This document shows positions 10,667-17,236 of a DNA stretch of 64,000 nucleotides, in pieces. Numbering within the stretch: position 1 is the stretch's first letter; every line of letters starts with the position of its first letter. The translations under genes were made by a program, and so were the position numbers. The stretch is taken from the NCBI RefSeq assembly GCF_019669905.1, contig NZ_AP019777.1, positions 4,588,001 through 4,652,000 of the forward strand, written 5' to 3'. Source of the DNA: Methylomonas koyamae. Lineage in GTDB: Bacteria; Pseudomonadota; Gammaproteobacteria; Methylococcales; Methylomonadaceae. Under the pieces are notes generated by a model. The model saw nothing but the letters and a program-made list of their open reading frames with translations. It ran no database searches and was not told the DNA's origin.

Positions 10667-11746
10667 CTAGAAAAAAGTAATATCGGTAGCGGGTTGTTGG
10701 TGGTTGACATTACCGCGATGGGCGCCGTGCTCGGAAACCATCGTGTAGGTACTGCTCAACTCATGCAGAATGTCGTCTGTCGCCAGCGGTTTGAGGCCGA
10801 ATACGCCGTCGCCGTGGCTGCGCATAATGTGGCGCGGCAGATTGCCGATGCTGTCGCGAACATGGGATAAAACCTGACTGATCCGGTCCTGAAATTGAAA
10901 TTGCACCAGCGATTCGTCTATCTCGCGTTTGATTAGACGGGCTTGATTGTCCATGTCGTCCGAGTGGCGCTGCAGCGTTTCGAACACGCCGTGCAATGCA
11001 CTCATAACGGTTTGGATATTGCCTTGCGATGCGGCGACGGCCGCAGTTTCGTTTTCGGTGCTTTTCTCGACGGCCACCAATGTGGTTTGGATCGCGCCAC
11101 TGACCTGGTCGACCTTAGAACCTATCAATTTACCGGTCTCGCCGGACAAATTGGACAACTTGCGCACTTCATCGGCCACCACGGCGAACCCGCGGCCGGC
11201 TTCCCCGGCTCTGGCGGCTTCGATGGCCGCATTCAACGCAATCAAATTGGTTTGCTCGGCGATCCGCGCCACTTCCCTAGCCATGGTTTTCAGTTCATCG
11301 ATAAACCCGGCCAAGGAGCGGATTTTGCTCAGTACCTGCAAGTTTTCCTGTAAAGAGGCATCCAGCGATCCGACGACTTTTTGCAGATTGGCGTTACTGG
11401 CCGAAAAAACGTCGTCGTGACCGCCGAGCGCCGGCTTGCTCGACACACCTAGCAAGGTATCGAGTCCGTCGGTAATCGCGGCAAAGCGTCCGGTCAATTC
11501 TGCGACGGCCTGATCCATTTGCCGGCGCGAAGATTCGATATGGTTGGACCAGACCGGCGCGACTTCGTCGGCAAACTTGTCAATTCCGGCAAGGTATTTT
11601 TCCAAATCGGCGGTAGGCAGCGACGGCGGTGGTTTGGGTTGATTTGCCAGCTCTTTCAGCAATCGACGTTTGGTATACGAGGCAGCAAACCAAGCGCTGC
11701 ACAGCGAACCAACCAACAATAAAAGTAATACTTGAAACATCGGCAC
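10667..11746 (-). CDS. Short membrane-anchored methyl-accepting chemotaxis protein
   Basis: Receptor-like protein of about 359 residues. It has one N-terminal membrane segment (residues 3-22, [19 protein letters not shown]) and then directly a cytoplasmic helical region with the conserved signalling tip ([34 protein letters not shown]). There is no periplasmic sensor domain and no HAMP. The C-terminal part carries [12 protein letters not shown], a motif common in this receptor class. The start is ambiguous: a GTG at 11746 lies 9 bp after an AGGAGG, while an ATG at 11740 is also possible. It is the first gene of the chemotaxis operon; the promoter must lie in 11747-11981. Confidence 0.9.
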
Positions 11747-11981
11747 TGGCTTCCGCCTCCTTTTCCGCTTAATCGAATTGCTCGAACCTGTTCAAAGACT
11801 CTCTGGCAAACGTCTGTCAAGCAGTATAGCTAGGCAATCACGCATTGCTAATGTGCGAATGTAGGAAATGTCCGACGCGCCGCAATTAAACCTTAATAAT
11901 TGCGGGCCAGTTACGGGAGAGGCTTGTATTGCTCGGGCAACGCTCTTAAAGTGTCGCGTTTTTGCGCAATCGAAGAAGACT

Positions 11982-12317
11982 ATGAACGACTACCCTGAAA
12001 AGACTTGCGAGATCGACCGACTGATCCGCCATCCTAAGCTGGTGGCAGCGGCACTGGCCGGCGACAAGACCCAACAACGCCGGGACGGCCTGTACGCCTA
12101 CCCTGGGGAAACGTTTGTTTTGGAAGGCGTCGAGTTCGAGATCACCGCGGTGGAGCGGCAACGCATCGGCGATATGAGCGACGCCGACGCCCAAGCCGAG
12201 GGCTATCCGAATTTGGCGGTATATAAGGATTTGATCTTGCGCATGCACAGCGGCATGGAATGGAACGACGACGGCCTGGTATGGCTACACTGCTTCAAGC
12301 GGCGCCAGCCGGAATAA
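11982..12317 (+). CDS. ASCH-domain protein
   Basis: Small cytoplasmic protein of 111 residues that looks like an ASCH (PUA-like, RNA-binding fold) protein. It shows an LAGDKTQQRRDG segment, a YAYPGETFVLEGVEFEITAVERQRIGDM core and a C-terminal W-DDGLVWLHCF strand. ASCH proteins bind nucleic acid or act on modified nucleosides; the substrate here is unknown. The ATG at 11982 is preferred over an upstream in-frame codon because the conserved region starts there and a GAAGAAGA sequence precedes it. Its 3' end overlaps the convergent hvfC gene by 23 bp. Confidence 0.75.
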   Translation: MNDYPEKTCEIDRLIRHPKLVAAALAGDKTQQRRDGLYAYPGETFVLEGVEFEITAVERQRIGDMSDADAQAEGYPNLAVYKDLILRMHSGMEWNDDGLVWLHCFKRRQPE

Positions 12318-13053
12318 CGATTCCTTTTTCGGCCAGTTCCCGCAACATCGCCAAGCCGTTGCTGTGCAACAGTTGCGGCTCGACCTGCGGGAATTCGGCT
12401 GCGACGATTTGCAAACATTGCGCGGCGGGCATCGGTCCCCGGTCTTGCAGGATTTGCAGCAAGCTTAGCGTCAGACCGCTCACCTGCAGAAAGTGGACTT
12501 GGTCCGCCTGGTCGCGATAGACGACCAGGCAAGTCGCTTGCTCGGGCGGCTGCGCCGGCAGGAAATCCGGACCGATGAGGTGCACCGGATATTGGTACAA
12601 CAACGGCCAGGCCAGTTGTGACAGCGCAATGGTTTGGGTAGACAGGTTGGCCAAAAACGCCTGGTCACCCCAATTCGGCGCATCCTTGGCAATCGACAGC
12701 GCCATTTCCACCCATTCGTAATGAGCCAACTCCAGCAGAAACGGATAGTCGTCCGGCTGATTGCGCTCGTTTTGCATATACTCCAAAAACTCTTCGGCAA
12801 TCTCGGAAAAATACGGCGTCCGGCAGTGGTGGCGGGAAAAAAAATCCTGCGTCAACTCCAGCCATTGTGCATCGTCCAGAATGGCCCGTAACACTGGAAA
12901 ATTGCTGGCAATGAAACTATCGATATTGTTGAAAAACAATTCGCGGTACATCGCCATCCGTTTAGGCGCGACATCGGCCGGCAGCGGATTGCTATACGGA
13001 TCGCGGATATAGGCGGCAAATCGCTGTTGCGTGGTTTGAAAAGATGCTGCCAT
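12295..13053 (-). CDS. hvfC: HvfC-like partner of MNIO peptide maturase (DUF2063)
   Basis: Protein of 252 residues of the DUF2063 / HvfC family. The N-terminal part has the family pattern QRFAAYIRDP, PKRMAMYRELFFNNI and SNFPVLRAIL. A later section contains FLLELAHYEWVEMAL, which is also typical. These proteins form a complex with the DUF692/MNIO enzyme and help it bind the precursor peptide. The true start is the ATG at 13053, which overlaps the hvfB stop as TGATG (1 bp), so the two proteins are translationally coupled, as expected for subunits of one enzyme. The C-terminal 100 residues resemble the winged-helix/RRE-like half of this family, but that assignment is inference. Confidence 0.88.
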   Translation of the reverse strand: MAASFQTTQQRFAAYIRDPYSNPLPADVAPKRMAMYRELFFNNIDSFIASNFPVLRAILDDAQWLELTQDFFSRHHCRTPYFSEIAEEFLEYMQNERNQPDDYPFLLELAHYEWVEMALSIAKDAPNWGDQAFLANLSTQTIALSQLAWPLLYQYPVHLIGPDFLPAQPPEQATCLVVYRDQADQVHFLQVSGLTLSLLQILQDRGPMPAAQCLQIVAAEFPQVEPQLLHSNGLAMLRELAEKGIVIPAGAA

Positions 13054-13901
13054 CAAGCCACCCGTTTTTCGGCGGCAACGGCATGCTGTTGAATGGCGCT
13101 GATCGTGTCCACTTCCCGTAACAATTCAGCCAGGGGTGGAATGTTGAAATCCCGTTCCAGCAAGGTTGGAAAGACGCCGAACAGATCGTAAGCCGTCGCC
13201 AGCAACGTCCAGACCGGGTCGATCACCGCGGCGCCATGGGTGTCGACCAAGAAGTCTTCGGCTTCGACGTAATGACCGGCAATATGCGCGTACGCGACCC
13301 GCTCGGCCGGCATGGCCCGCAGAAAAGCGGCGGCGTCGTAACCGTGGTTGACGCTATTGACGTAGATATTATTGATATCGAGCAGCACATCGCAATCGGC
13401 CTCGGCAACGACGGCATTGAAAAAATCGATCTCGGCCATTTCCTGCCCGGGCGCGGCATAATAGGAAATATTTTCGATGGCGATACGCTGTTCCAGAATG
13501 TCCTGTACCCGACGAATGCGGGCCGCGACATGTTTGACCGCGTCGGCGGTAAACGGCATCGGCATCAAATCGTATAGATGCCCGCCGTGGCTGCAATAGC
13601 TGAGGTGTTCGCTGTAAAACTTGATGCCGTGTTCGGCCATGAACCGTTTAAGATCGCGCACGAACTGTTCGTCGAGCGGATCGCTGCTACCGATGGATAG
13701 CGACAGGCCGTGGCAAACGAAGTCGAAGCGCTCGGTCATGGCCCGAAATTGCTTGCCGAACTTGCCGCCGATCGGCATCCAGTTCTCCGGTGCCACTTCG
13801 TAGAAGCCGACTTGCGTTGGCGGCTGGTCGACAATCTCGCTCAAAAACGAACGGCGCAAACCCAGGCCGGCACCGTGGACCAGATTGCGAACGCTCTGCA
13901 T
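13053..13901 (-). CDS. hvfB: HvfB-like MNIO RiPP maturase (DUF692)
   Basis: TIM-barrel multinuclear non-haem iron oxidase of 282 residues. Members of this family (MbnB of methanobactin, HvfB, bufferin BufB) modify cysteines of a ribosomal peptide to oxazolone/thioamide or related heterocycles. Likely iron ligands are visible: H64 (FVCHGLSLSIGS), E98/H99 (YSEHLSYC), E143 (IENISYY), D175 (LLDINNIYVN), H206/H210 (HIAGHY) and D220/H222 (VDTHGAA). The start at 13901 follows GGAAGAG and lies only 3 bp after the dedA stop. It belongs to the unit hvfA-dedA-hvfB-hvfC, and its substrate is very likely the Cys-rich HvfA peptide encoded at 14499-15053. Confidence 0.93.
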   Translation of the reverse strand: MQSVRNLVHGAGLGLRRSFLSEIVDQPPTQVGFYEVAPENWMPIGGKFGKQFRAMTERFDFVCHGLSLSIGSSDPLDEQFVRDLKRFMAEHGIKFYSEHLSYCSHGGHLYDLMPMPFTADAVKHVAARIRRVQDILEQRIAIENISYYAAPGQEMAEIDFFNAVVAEADCDVLLDINNIYVNSVNHGYDAAAFLRAMPAERVAYAHIAGHYVEAEDFLVDTHGAAVIDPVWTLLATAYDLFGVFPTLLERDFNIPPLAELLREVDTISAIQQHAVAAEKRVA

Positions 13902-13904
13902 CGC

Positions 13905-14468
13905 TTACTCTTCCGGTTTATGCGTCGAACGCCAAAACAAGGCCAGACCTATCGCCACCAACACGCCCAGAATATACATTTCGTATTTTTTGACCTGGCC
14001 CATGATGGATTCGGCAAATTGGCCGAAGGTATAGCCCAAGTAACCGACAGCGATGGCCCAGATCGCCGCACCCAGAAAATTCAAGGCAAAGAACTTCAGC
14101 GGATGAATCTTGCTGGCGCCGATCACGAACGGCGTCACGTTGCGTACGCCGTACAGAAAACGGAAACCGAGAATCACCGGTATCTGGTGTTTGTGCAGCA
14201 GATCGAACACTTTGTCGGTTTTACTATGCCAAAGCGGCCGCTTCTCCAAAAAAGAGATCCCCTTCCAGCGTCCCAGATAAAAGAAGGTCTGGTCGCCGGC
14301 AAAGGTGCCGAGGAACGCTGTCAACATGACCCATTCCAGCGCTAAATAGCCGCTATGCGCCAAAAAGCCGGCAATTACCAGAATGGTTTCGCCTTCCAGA
14401 TAGGTACCGATGAATAAGGCCAGATAACCGTAATCGATAACCAGCTGTTGTATATCCTGAAAATCCAT
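13905..14468 (-). CDS. DedA/SNARE-associated family membrane protein
   Basis: Polytopic inner-membrane protein of 187 residues of the DedA family. Family signatures are GTYLEGETILVIAGFLAHSGYL, FLGTFAGDQTFFYLGRWKG and the FRFLYGVRNVTPFVIGASKI box. Several DedA proteins flip polyprenyl-phosphate or phospholipid head groups and are tied to envelope homeostasis. The unusual point is position: it sits between the hvfA precursor gene (31 bp upstream) and hvfB (3 bp downstream), where hvf clusters more commonly carry a DoxX-type membrane protein. A role in export or envelope handling of the modified peptide is an inference from this placement. Confidence 0.9.
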   Translation of the reverse strand: MDFQDIQQLVIDYGYLALFIGTYLEGETILVIAGFLAHSGYLALEWVMLTAFLGTFAGDQTFFYLGRWKGISFLEKRPLWHSKTDKVFDLLHKHQIPVILGFRFLYGVRNVTPFVIGASKIHPLKFFALNFLGAAIWAIAVGYLGYTFGQFAESIMGQVKKYEMYILGVLVAIGLALFWRSTHKPEE

Positions 14469-14498
14469 AACGTCGATTCTTACCGTCAGGTCGGAGAA

Positions 14499-15053
14499 TT
14501 AATGGCCGGCCGCTTTGTCGGCATCCACTTTGCTGCCGCAACTGCCTTCGCCGCCTTTCATCATGGCACCGCAGCTATGCTCGCCGGCTTTTTTATCCGG
14601 ATTCATCATCGCGCCGCAACTGCCTTCCTCACTTTGTTTCGGCTTGTCGGCATTACCATGGTCCATGCCGCCCATCATGCCCATGCCGCAGGCGCCTTCC
14701 TTGCCTTTCATCATCGCACCGCACATGTTTTCCATGCCCGGCTTCATCTTACCGCCGCTCATCATGCCGCCGCACATCCCTTCGCCGCAGGAACCCTCTG
14801 CCTTCTTCGCGTCGGCTTTCTTGGCGCCGCCAGCCACTTTTTTACCGTTACTATCCATCGCATTGGAGCCGCAGGCACCTTGGCTGATTTTGCCGTTGGA
14901 ATGCTCGGCGTGCGAAGTAGCGACCTGCATATAGCCGCCGGACAGTTCCGACAACGCAAACGGATTGGACTCGGCTTGCGCGTTCGCAGCGATTCCGGAC
15001 AAAAGGGCACCGCCCATTGCAGCGGCCAACGGAGATTTATTGAATTTTTTCAT
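14499..15053 (-). CDS. hvfA: HvfA-like cysteine-rich RiPP precursor with signal peptide
   Basis: Secreted low-complexity peptide of 184 residues. Residues 1-27 are a Sec signal peptide cut after AQA. The mature part is rich in Gly, Met and Lys and has eight cysteines (61, 89, 94, 111, 122, 146, 161, 172), every one in a Cys-Gly pair. Five lie in canonical EGxCG motifs (86-90, 91-95, 119-123, 143-147, 169-173), two in variants ENMCG and EHSCG, and one in QGACG. EGxCG is the site modified by HvfB/HvfC in this family. Interleaved Met-rich GMM/GGMM runs would also favour Cu(I). The start has a GAGAGGA ribosome site. It is the first gene of hvfA-dedA-hvfB-hvfC, 104 bp downstream of nth. The chemical form of the product is not known. 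Confidence 0.92.
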   Translation of the reverse strand: MKKFNKSPLAAAMGGALLSGIAANAQAESNPFALSELSGGYMQVATSHAEHSNGKISQGACGSNAMDSNGKKVAGGAKKADAKKAEGSCGEGMCGGMMSGGKMKPGMENMCGAMMKGKEGACGMGMMGGMDHGNADKPKQSEEGSCGAMMNPDKKAGEHSCGAMMKGGEGSCGSKVDADKAAGH

Positions 15054-15157
15054 GTAGATATCCTCTCGTGCGTTTTTGTAATTATGTTATCCGGCCCGAT
15101 TCCGGCCGCATTACGAATGGCAAACGTCCTGCTGCTTCGATCCTGATTATTGCATAT

Positions 15158-15793
15158 TCAAGCTGGATTCTTGTCCTTAAATTCGCACAGGTCCGCGATG
15201 CAACAGGCCCCACAGCGCGGCTTTCGGGCAATACAGATGTAGCGGCCGTGCAGGATCAGTAAGTGGTGCGCATCTTTTTTATAGGGCTTGGGCACCGTCT
15301 TTTCCAGTTTCTTCTCCACCTCCAGCACGTTTTTCCCCGGCGCTAGGCCGGTGCGGTTGGCGACCCGGAAAATATGGGTATCGACCGCGATGGTTGGCTG
15401 GCCGAATGCGGTATTCAAAATCACGTTAGCCGTTTTGCGGCCGACGCCAGCCAGCGCTTCCAGCGCTTCCCGCTCACGCGGAACCTCGCCCCGATGCTTT
15501 TCCAGCAGAGTCTGGCAAAGTTTTATGACATTTGCCGCCTTGCTATTAAATAAACCGATGGTCTTGATGTGATCTTTCAAGCCGTCTTCGCCCAAAGCCA
15601 AAATCGCCTGCGGCGTATTGGCGACCGGAAACAATTTGGCGGTCGCTTTGTTGACGCCCTTGTCGGTCGCTTGCGCCGACAACACCACTGCCACCAGCAA
15701 TTCGAACGGCGTGCTGTAATTCAATTCGGTGGTCGGATTCGGCGTGGCCTCGGCTAGGCGTTGAAAAATCGTCAGGCGTTTTTCACTATTCAT
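15158..15793 (-). CDS. nth: Endonuclease III
   Basis: DNA glycosylase/AP lyase for oxidised pyrimidines in base-excision repair. From the ATG at 15793 the protein is 211 residues, the same length as the E. coli enzyme; longer in-frame extensions upstream lack support. The helix-hairpin-helix LEALAGVGRKTANVIL contains the catalytic lysine. The aspartate follows in AVDTHIFRVANRTGL. The C-terminal iron-sulphur cluster motif is C-x6-C-x2-C-x5-C (CIARKPRCGACCIADLC). It lies upstream of hvfA on the same strand, but the 104-bp gap and different function argue against a tight functional link. Confidence 0.97.
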   Translation of the reverse strand: MNSEKRLTIFQRLAEATPNPTTELNYSTPFELLVAVVLSAQATDKGVNKATAKLFPVANTPQAILALGEDGLKDHIKTIGLFNSKAANVIKLCQTLLEKHRGEVPREREALEALAGVGRKTANVILNTAFGQPTIAVDTHIFRVANRTGLAPGKNVLEVEKKLEKTVPKPYKKDAHHLLILHGRYICIARKPRCGACCIADLCEFKDKNPA

Positions 15794-15980
15794 ATCGGTT
15801 TGGCAAAATCGGGTTGAAGTGTTCCAGGCCATTCGAACTTCGGCAAGCCGATCCGGCTAGGCTGGCAATGCATGCATCAGCGGTAACGGCTAAATTTAAT
15901 GGAACCATTCCTCGCGCCTCAAGTCTTTAACTAGCCACCGCAAGGGGGCAACTCAACACACAACAAAAATCGGGGGATTT

Positions 15981-16316
15981 ATGAAAACATTAACAGCGAT
16001 TACCGTCAGCGCACTATTGTTTGCCAGCAGCGGCGTATTTGCCGAAGAACATGCCGCAACCGCGCTGGAACACGCCAACCAGGCCGTGACCCACGGCAAA
16101 GCCGGCCATGCTTCGGTATTGGTAGAACACGCCGAAGCCGCTCTGCCCCATGCCAAAAAAGGCGCCGAAGTCGCCAAAGGCGAAGCCAAAACCCACATGG
16201 AGGCCGGCGTCAAATCTCTGGAAAGCGCGGTCGAGCACGGCAAAATGGGCCATGCCGACGTTGCGACCAAAGCCGCCGAGGAAGCCGTCGAACATATCAA
16301 AGCCGGCAACAAATAA
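15981..16316 (+). CDS. smbP: SmbP-like small metal-binding periplasmic protein
   Basis: Exported protein of 111 residues. The signal peptide is residues 1-21 (ends VFA before EEH). The mature part is a helical array of seven-residue-like repeats with regularly spaced histidines, such as ALEHANQAVTHGKAGHA, LVEHAEAALPHAKKG and VEHGKMGHADVA, and many Glu and Ala. This matches SmbP, the periplasmic copper-binding protein first seen in Nitrosomonas europaea. It probably buffers copper or other divalent metals in the periplasm. A CGGGGGA ribosome site precedes the ATG. It is transcribed divergently from nth. Confidence 0.85.
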   Translation: MKTLTAITVSALLFASSGVFAEEHAATALEHANQAVTHGKAGHASVLVEHAEAALPHAKKGAEVAKGEAKTHMEAGVKSLESAVEHGKMGHADVATKAAEEAVEHIKAGNK

Positions 16317-16362
16317 TCCGCAAAACTCCCGCTATAAGGTCCCAACGGCCAGTTGAGGCCAT

Positions 16363-16395
16363 CGGGTAGAGGCGCAGCCAATGCGCTTCTACCCG
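16363..16395. terminator. Hairpin between convergent smbP and thyA
   Basis: Inverted repeat with a 14-bp stem (16363-16376 with 16382-16395, one G-U pair) and a 5-nt loop. It lies between two convergent genes and could end transcription from both sides. No long T-run follows, so intrinsic termination is probable rather than certain. Confidence 0.6.
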
Positions 16396-16402
16396 CACTC
16401 CA

Positions 16403-17236
16403 TCATACCGACACGGCCCCGGCAATATGCGGGTGCGCCTGATAATTCAGCAATTCGAAATCGCTAAACCGGTAATCGAAAATCGACTCCGGCCGGCGCC
16501 CGAACTGCAACTGCGGCAGCGGCAAAGGCTGGCGGCCCAATTGCAATTCTACTTGGGCAAAATGGTTGCGATAGACGTGGACGTCGCCGAACGACATGAT
16601 CAGCTCGCCCGGTTCGAAACCGCATTGCTGGGCCAGCATATGCGTCAATAATGCCACGCTGGCCTGGTTATACGGCACACCCAAAAAACAATCGGCACTG
16701 CGCTGAGTCATCATGCAAGACAATTTGCCATTGGCGACGTAAAACTGGTACAGCACATGGCACGGCGGCAACGCCATCCTGCCGGCCGCCGCATTTTCGC
16801 GTGGCCCTATGGTTTCATCCGGTAGAAAACCCACGTTCCAGGCGCTGACCACGTGCCGCCGCGAGTCGGGTTTACGCTTCAAGCCGTCGACCAGAATCTC
16901 GATCTGGTCGTAACAGGTGCCATCCGGCCCCAACCAATTGCGCCATTGCGCGCCGTAAACCGGACCGAGCTCGCCGTCCGGGGTCGCCCACTCGTCCCAG
17001 ATTGTGACGCCGTGGTCGTTCAAGTATTTGATATTGGTGTCGCCGCGCAGAAACCATAACAACTCGTAGGCTATCGATTTGAAATGCAGTTTTTTGGTGG
17101 TTAACAACGGGAAACCGTCGGCCAGGTTGTAACGGATTTGCCGGCCGAATACCGAGCGCGTCCCGGTGCCGGTACGGTCGTTTTTGTCGACGCCGTTGGC
17201 CATGATGTCGGCCAGAAGATCTAAGTAGGGTTGCAT
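16403..17236 (-). CDS. thyA: Thymidylate synthase
   Basis: Converts dUMP to dTMP using methylene-tetrahydrofolate. The 277-residue protein has all family blocks: [13 protein letters not shown], the catalytic cysteine C159 in [34 protein letters not shown] and [15 protein letters not shown]. It ends with the usual hydrophobic valine-rich tail (GAVSV). It is slightly longer than the 264-residue E. coli protein, mainly because of an insertion around 133-152 ([14 protein letters not shown]). Convergent with smbP. Confidence 0.97.

Follow-up and report, generated by a model that had tools for sequence, protein, structure and literature searches.

A dedA gene between the precursor and maturase genes of an HvfABC-type MNIO operon in Methylomonas

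The closest described relatives of the system analysed here are the HvfABC/oxazolin, fontiphorin and gonophorin clusters (the Buf_EGKCG/oxazolin group), which share with it an HvfB-family MNIO enzyme, an HvfC-family partner, an exported precursor with Cys-Gly pairs, and the gene order A-B-C. Characterised relatives of these enzymes make copper-binding thiooxazoles (PMC13097082, section 11; PMC13419390, in part). Little is understood of the membrane proteins that accompany MNIO metallophore operons; the DoxX-like HvfX is called uncharacterised in PMC13419390. Here we describe an operon of this kind in a 64,000-nucleotide stretch of the Methylomonas koyamae genome (NZ_AP019777.1, positions 4,588,001 to 4,652,000; hereafter, the window), in which dedA, a gene for a DedA-family membrane protein, lies between the precursor and maturase genes. 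Our interpretation, to which we assign a probability of about 70%, is that this is an MNIO metallophore operon with a captured and co-translated dedA, that the metallophore is a copper-binding thiooxazole peptide, and that DedA acts independently of it. The genes are transcribed from the minus strand in the order hvfA-like precursor, dedA, hvfB, hvfC:

14499..15053, minus strand: hvfA-like precursor, 184 amino acids; signal peptide assigned by eye, MKKFNKSPLAAAMGGALLSGIAANAQA, then eight Cys, each before Gly; Met-rich
13905..14468, minus strand: dedA (VTT domain), COG0586-like, 187 amino acids; PF09335; E25, E27, R103 and R109 invariant
13908..13914, minus strand: GGAAGAG, likely Shine-Dalgarno sequence of hvfB, inside the last dedA codons
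13053..13901, minus strand: hvfB, MNIO (DUF692) maturase, 282 amino acids; PF05114, NCBIfam HvfB
12295..13053, minus strand: hvfC, DUF2063/NGO1945_C partner (PME1), 252 amino acids from the ATG at 13053

The gap between hvfA and dedA is 30 base pairs (bp) and that between dedA and hvfB is 3 bp; hvfB and hvfC overlap in a TGATG, in which the hvfB stop (13055-13053) shares bases with the hvfC start (13053-13051). An earlier, sequence-only reading of this DNA had proposed the gene order, the 3-bp spacing and the TGATG coupling, and the coordinates bear out all three.

The insertion of dedA is real and common to many related species. We searched 61 genomes for DedA and HvfB, namely 37 members of the genus (that of the window included) and 24 members of the order outside it; G001, without an HvfB match, was left out, leaving 36 hvfB-bearing Methylomonas genomes. 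In 26 of the 36, the window's included, dedA lies between hvfA and hvfB, and because the same order recurs so often we do not ascribe it to chance. The sequence-only reading had named an adjacent DedA in this genome alone as an outcome that would refute it, and the arrangement is not peculiar to this genome. The remaining ten (G006, G007, G008, G013, G014, G015, G019, G026, G027, G029) carry hvfABC without an in-operon dedA; nine of them otherwise keep the order nth-hvfA-hvfB-hvfC, and in G019 nth was not found within the stretch examined. A single DedA orthologue is present at E <= 1e-30 in 33 of the 37 genus genomes (the G029 match is partial), and none was found at that threshold in G001, G013, G015 or G019. 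Seven of the ten genomes without an in-operon dedA keep the orthologue elsewhere, and three (G013, G015, G019) have no close DedA.

Beyond the genus, no HvfB locus that we examined has DedA between precursor and maturase. A draw from the family gave a DedA match at E <= 1e-30 in 21/201 genomes and 2/29 genera; the DedA of the second genus is 39-40% identical and has no hvf genes within ~1.5 kb. None of the 24 genomes of the order outside the genus has a DedA match within 2 kb of an HvfB match. Of the 80 named HvfB loci, DedA stands between A and B at six; at 73 it was not found there (by profile or tblastn), and one, L150, is too short upstream to judge (234 bp before hvfB); at 15 other named loci, which have no labelled HvfA-like open reading frame (ORF), 'between A and B' was taken to mean upstream of B. 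All six were already counted among the 26 (five are called Methylomonas, and one is the Methylococcaceae metagenome-assembled genome OWC_0100, G016), and the named loci without dedA include Methylomonas lenta, Methylomonas FW.007 and Methylomonas 354-166. Relatives of DedA occur in 43/369 genomes of the class (E <= 1e-15) and 56/398 of the phylum (E <= 1e-30), and an MNIO gene was found within ~1.5 kb at 0/29 class-level and 0/28 phylum-level DedA loci examined. In the part of the literature covered, no publication was found that links DedA with MNIO or DUF692, or Methylomonas with DUF692, and neither DedA nor VTT occurs in the main texts of PMC12452194 and PMC13097082.

A DedA gene also lies near an MNIO gene in six genomes of two related families (f7/f8), ~2 kb downstream of hvfC (~5 kb in G042). 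We do not regard this as the same association, because that gene belongs to a hemL-globin-dedA group (L083-L088, L098; globin and VTT assigned by Pfam, and the first gene being one that we take to be hemL) which in G049 (L098) stands on a contig other than that of hvf. These proteins also resemble the window DedA only weakly (22 to 50 bits).

The MNIO part of the locus is of a known kind: an HvfABC-type MNIO-PME1 ('captophorin'/oxazolin-type) operon for a ribosomally synthesised and post-translationally modified peptide (RiPP). The window HvfB scores 359 bits against PF05114 (MbnB_TglH_ChrH) and 440.6 bits against NCBIfam NF003818 (cut-off 360); HvfC scores 95.2 bits against PF09836 (DUF2063), 93.1 bits against PF22106 (NGO1945_C) and 308.2 bits against NCBIfam NF050145 (cut-off 142). 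The solved structures closest by sequence are 3bww (HvfB) and 3dee (HvfC). Mapping through 3bww places N177, D220 and H222 of the window HvfB on N175, D242 and H244 of the HvfB in PMC13419390. The residues of iron site 3 and the catalytic base are in place. N177, D220 and H222, together with D251, are identical in 105/105 HvfB sequences compared, a set that leaves out G030 and G033 (<=190 amino acids), L130-L135, L143, L158, L159 and G046. Thirteen of the 14 positions checked are identical in all 105, and the fourteenth, R16, in 104; seven of the others were chosen as what we presume to be metal ligands. R17, D251 and F252 are likewise unchanged in 105/105. We placed R16/R17 and D251/F252 on FonB R15/R16 and D249/F250 by motif, FonB itself being outside the alignment; section 14 of PMC13097082 ties the Arg pair and the Asp-Phe positions to substrate selection. 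On these family scores and residues, the earlier proposal of an HvfABC-like RiPP operon, which pairs MNIO and DUF2063 proteins with a secreted precursor rich in Cys, is supported. The hvfB of G030 (L047) has an internal TAA stop, which may be a sequencing error in a draft that is 78% complete.

The locus departs from the HvfABC/oxazolin clusters in having dedA between A and B and no DoxX gene, and in its precursor, which misses the HvfA cut-off and carries no EGKCG, the residue ahead of Cys being Ser, Ala or Met. A DoxX gene is a common but not universal feature of related clusters; the window genome (G000) has PF07681 matches only at C1:1590798 and C1:1687468. The bufferins (Buf1, DUF2282) share the MNIO and PME1 logic and a Sec-exported precursor, but the window HvfB reaches 275.2 bits against a BufB cut-off of 310, and the window precursor has no DUF2282 match. 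A second MNIO gene of the same genome (C1:1688602; L082, C1:1684500-1693500) accompanies a DUF2282 (Buf1) precursor of 91 amino acids, with a DoxX match ~1 kb away. With methanobactin (MbnABC) the shared element is the MNIO superfamily: the window HvfB scores 51 bits against an MbnB cut-off of 325, the window precursor has a signal peptide, and the partner protein is DUF2063 rather than MbnC.

The precursor has no Pfam match. Its eight Cys stand in the contexts QGACG, EGSCG, EGMCG, ENMCG, EGACG, EGSCG, EHSCG and EGSCG; five lie within EGxCG and none within EGKCG. Across the genus, Gly follows Cys at 207/207 Cys in the 26 precursors with an in-operon dedA and at 83/85 in the ten without, and Lys precedes Cys at 5/207 and 2/85, respectively, versus 167/464 in the best HvfA-like ORF of each of 56 other loci; the motif is thus alike with and without an in-operon dedA. 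According to section 12 of PMC13097082, FonBC tolerates Ala before Cys and requires Gly or Ala after it. The precursor motifs of the genus therefore look like usable substrates, and the Cys-Gly pattern agrees with the small-residue rule described for FonB in that part of PMC13097082. The enzyme pocket residues of the Lys-Cys class are kept while the substrates have almost lost Lys. We found 581 homologues of the precursor; among the 120 matches listed, the named organisms are Methylomonas, Methyloprofundus, Methylococcaceae and Methylococcales. Homology to HvfA is suggested by synteny, by a precursor from the corresponding nth-hvfABC locus of another family (L084), which passes the HvfA cut-off at 100.3, and by a homologue at 44% identity (P0113) that carries the name HvfA family; two precursors from within the genus (L071, L074) have no NCBIfam match. 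Judged by locus and by this chain of homology rather than by the curated model, the window precursor is a divergent HvfA. The hvfA gene first proposed stands in part: the product is secreted and Cys-rich, with EGxCG at five of eight Cys, but it falls below the HvfA cut-off and lacks EGKCG. Three methanotroph loci (L144, L147, L162) have a tandem pair of HvfA-like ORFs ahead of hvfB.

The window DedA contains a VTT domain (PF09335, 70.6 bits; cut-off 33.9) and is identical between the window genome and that of M. koyamae SM2. The COG0586 DedAs (YghB/YqjA, UptA), taken as undecaprenyl-phosphate flippases in PMC10127716, share with it the VTT domain, two Arg at the tip of the second re-entrant segment and an acid at the D51 position: Escherichia coli YghB D51 aligns with window E27, and R130/R136 with R103/R109. 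Arg occupies both positions in 53/53 rows (YghB and some identical rows included), and an acid occupies the D51 position in 50/53. On this alignment the residue pattern of the window DedA seems close to that of the COG0586 proteins. In contrast to these, the window protein has an E-G-E motif at the first tip; E25, E27, R103 and R109 do not vary among 28 aligned relatives. An AlphaFold2 model (mean predicted local distance difference test score 86.8) breaks its helices at 25-26 and 105-110, at or beside the invariant residues. Searches with the sequence (E <= 0.1) and with a profile (E <= 1) found no solved structure of a relative, nor did the model have any fold match at E <= 0.001. How the several DedA proteins of one cell are to be distinguished is described as an open question in PMC10127716.

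A further feature of the insertion concerns translation. The sequence GGARGAR directly precedes the dedA stop in 19 of the 26 genomes with the insertion, and in 17 it is combined with the 3-bp gap to hvfB. Throughout the window's own clade of 17 genomes, dedA ends in GGARGAR, the stop codon and three bases before the hvfB ATG (17/17), and there the purine run expected to place ribosomes on hvfB is itself dedA coding sequence. The earlier claim that dedA is translated together with the maturase is thus probably right, through a likely hvfB ribosome site at the dedA end. The protein as a whole is also constrained: the ratio of nonsynonymous to synonymous substitution (dN/dS) of dedA was computable for six of seven pairs and ranges there between 0.013 and 0.085, values that are rough because dS exceeds 1 in all six. 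In 4/5 pairs where the ratio was computable for all four genes, that of dedA is the smallest. We conclude that dedA is under purifying selection, a working gene and no relic.

In a 50-row tree built from HvfB, HvfC and Nth (outgroup, 13 of the 80 named loci plus G046), at least three changes of dedA state are needed. Nine of the ten congeners without an in-operon dedA, all but G019, form one clade (support 100), of which two members (G013, G015) have no close DedA. The seven DedAs of the genus that lie outside the operon also form one clade (99/97), placed among the in-operon DedAs, and again three changes are needed. The shortest history consistent with these trees would be a single gain close to the root of the genus, with one exit in the clade of nine and G019 as a separate case.

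We propose the following scheme. HvfC would present the HvfA-like precursor to HvfB, which would oxidise the CG-type cysteines, probably to copper-binding thiooxazoles; the peptide would be exported through Sec to the periplasm, where it would bind excess copper or other soft metals. A single gain, close to the root of the genus, probably brought dedA into the slot ahead of hvfB, and in the window genome it would supply the ribosome site of hvfB; with the site so placed, dedA, hvfB and hvfC would be translated as one block. DedA itself most likely acts alone, using protons to drive the transport of undecaprenyl phosphate or a similar lipid and thereby influencing the envelope and cation balance indirectly. 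It may be produced alongside the metallophore enzymes when metals stress the envelope, and would have no part in peptide processing. Gene order, families, residues, distribution, coupling signal and constraint come from the sequences themselves; we infer the chemistry, the metal, the regulation and the activity of DedA, and for copper binding and thiooxazole formation we do so by analogy with the characterised relatives. No Methylomonas copper transcriptome was found in the part of the literature covered. Since other relatives manage without an in-operon dedA, the gene is probably a dispensable neighbour that is expressed along with the metallophore genes: hvfABC occurs without it in 10/36 genomes and outside the genus, and DedA is unlinked in seven, so that an independent, co-expressed envelope protein fits better than a pathway component.

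Several observations weigh against this scheme. Among the nine insertion genomes outside the window's clade, GGARGAR is present in two (G009, G018) and absent from seven, and the dedA-hvfB gap varies between 2 and 17 bp; not all insertion genomes carry the coupling signal. A single clade of in-operon DedAs is not rejected (approximately unbiased test, p-AU 0.131), so an ancestral place elsewhere, or separate insertions, would also be possible, and the one-gain history is unproven. The window DedA falls below the NCBIfam cut-offs (UptA, 41.8 versus 250; PRK10847, 48.2 versus 236), and YghB E39 has no counterpart in it, which makes transport of undecaprenyl phosphate uncertain. The precursor scores 26.1 bits against NCBIfam HvfA (NF050188), far below the cut-off of 95, which is why we call it divergent. 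Finally, the retention of dedA in its slot across most of the genus, together with constraint on the whole protein, exceeds what a neutral passenger would require and favours some shared physiology.

The sequence-only reading proposed that DedA is an accessory part of the pathway and may act on the peptide or its envelope environment. A dedicated accessory might help to export or anchor the modified peptide or to associate it with lipid, or might stand in for DoxX, for which the operon has no gene; the slot held in 26/36 genus members, the likely hvfB ribosome site in many insertion genomes, the constraint on dedA and an orthologue almost confined to the genus in the family draw all speak for such a role. 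We nonetheless consider it improbable, given that ten congeners keep hvfABC without an in-operon dedA (seven holding DedA away from hvf, three without any close DedA), that no HvfB locus examined outside the genus has one, and that the precursor motif is the same either way. We reject an exchange of DedA for DoxX, because 0/10 of these congeners have a DoxX match near the locus; for a direct action on the peptide we found no support. A related reading, in which a proton-driven DedA lipid flippase has become the fixed, co-translated fourth component of the Methylomonas metallophore system, strikes us as no less doubtful. On that reading a thiooxazole peptide whose CG motifs are almost free of Lys would be matured, or placed in the envelope, in a manner coupled to the recycling of lipid carriers, and one clade would have lost the link secondarily. 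Conversely, dedA could be a pure passenger, inserted by chance and kept for the hvfB ribosome site in its 3' end; simple loss of the gene would then cut translation of the maturase. The restriction of the insertion to the genus, the ten genomes in which it is dispensable, the ribosome-site-like run over the last codons in 19/26 and the lack of MNIO genes near DedA at the class- and phylum-level loci examined agree with this. A ribosome site needs the last codons only, yet conservation extends over the entire protein; 7/10 retain the orthologue elsewhere (G029 matched in part); and 7/26 genomes keep dedA in the slot without GGARGAR. Conservation and survival elsewhere argue that DedA itself has a function, and the passenger explanation is thus unlikely.

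Another possibility is that the peptide serves a non-copper metal, or redox or general envelope stress, and that DedA is tied to cation balance. In six of the seven congeners with the orthologue outside the operon, it adjoins genes for a CitMHS-family antiporter, TrkH or CNNM/CorC; in G046, DedA is near a ZIP gene; CorA or VIT1 is near 4/29 class-level DedA loci, two of the four from one genus; deletion of yqjA/yghB in Klebsiella alters divalent-cation balance (PMC10846249); and the precursor is Met-rich. On the other hand, such neighbours are found at 0/28 phylum-level DedA loci, against 4/29 for the class and 1/74 for control HvfB loci (longer stretches), and we take cation-transport genes, as a general neighbour of DedA too, for a weak hint only, because the queries came from those very neighbourhoods and inflate the class count. 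The enzyme relatives characterised in section 11 of PMC13097082 bind copper, and this alternative too appears rather unlikely. Our preferred reading thus remains that of a copper metallophore operon with an independent, co-translated DedA. Within one genus the same DedA is found in the operon in most species and outside it, or not at all, in others, a natural experiment that makes a functional link testable.

The six loci just mentioned (L063-L068) group the dedA orthologue with CitMHS-family antiporter, TrkH, CNNM/CorC or PilZ genes; the antiporter is one that we take to be NhaD-like. dedA might have originated from the antiporter locus; in 14 further stretches (14 genomes), the best NhaD-like gene lies without dedA and without TrkH/CNNM, the TrkH/CNNM region itself not having been looked up.

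Four further features flank the operon:

15146..15154, minus strand: TGCAATAAT, extended -10-like element upstream of hvfA, from congener alignment and pattern count
15158..15832, minus strand: nth (endonuclease III), upstream neighbour, which marks the nth-hvfABC locus
11982..12317, plus strand: small unnamed ORF running towards hvfC, with which it shares 23 bp at the 3' end
15981-16316, plus strand: SMBP (small metal-binding protein), PF16785, 130.5 bits, divergent from nth

The pattern TGC(A/C)ATAAT occurs within 130 bp upstream of hvfA in 25/26 genomes with an in-operon dedA and in 0/10 without. A scan for consensus promoters gave one match (shuffled mean, 2.8), none of it upstream of hvfA, and did not report the TGCAATAAT element; Rfam gave no match at the gathering threshold over 11500-16500. 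SMBP adjoins nth at 5/6 named loci having dedA (L130-L134); none is labelled in the 9-kb hvf stretches from the ten congeners that lack an in-operon dedA. A homologue of the small convergent ORF faces hvfC in many congeners, and the 23-bp 3' overlap (12295-12317 in the window) recurs.

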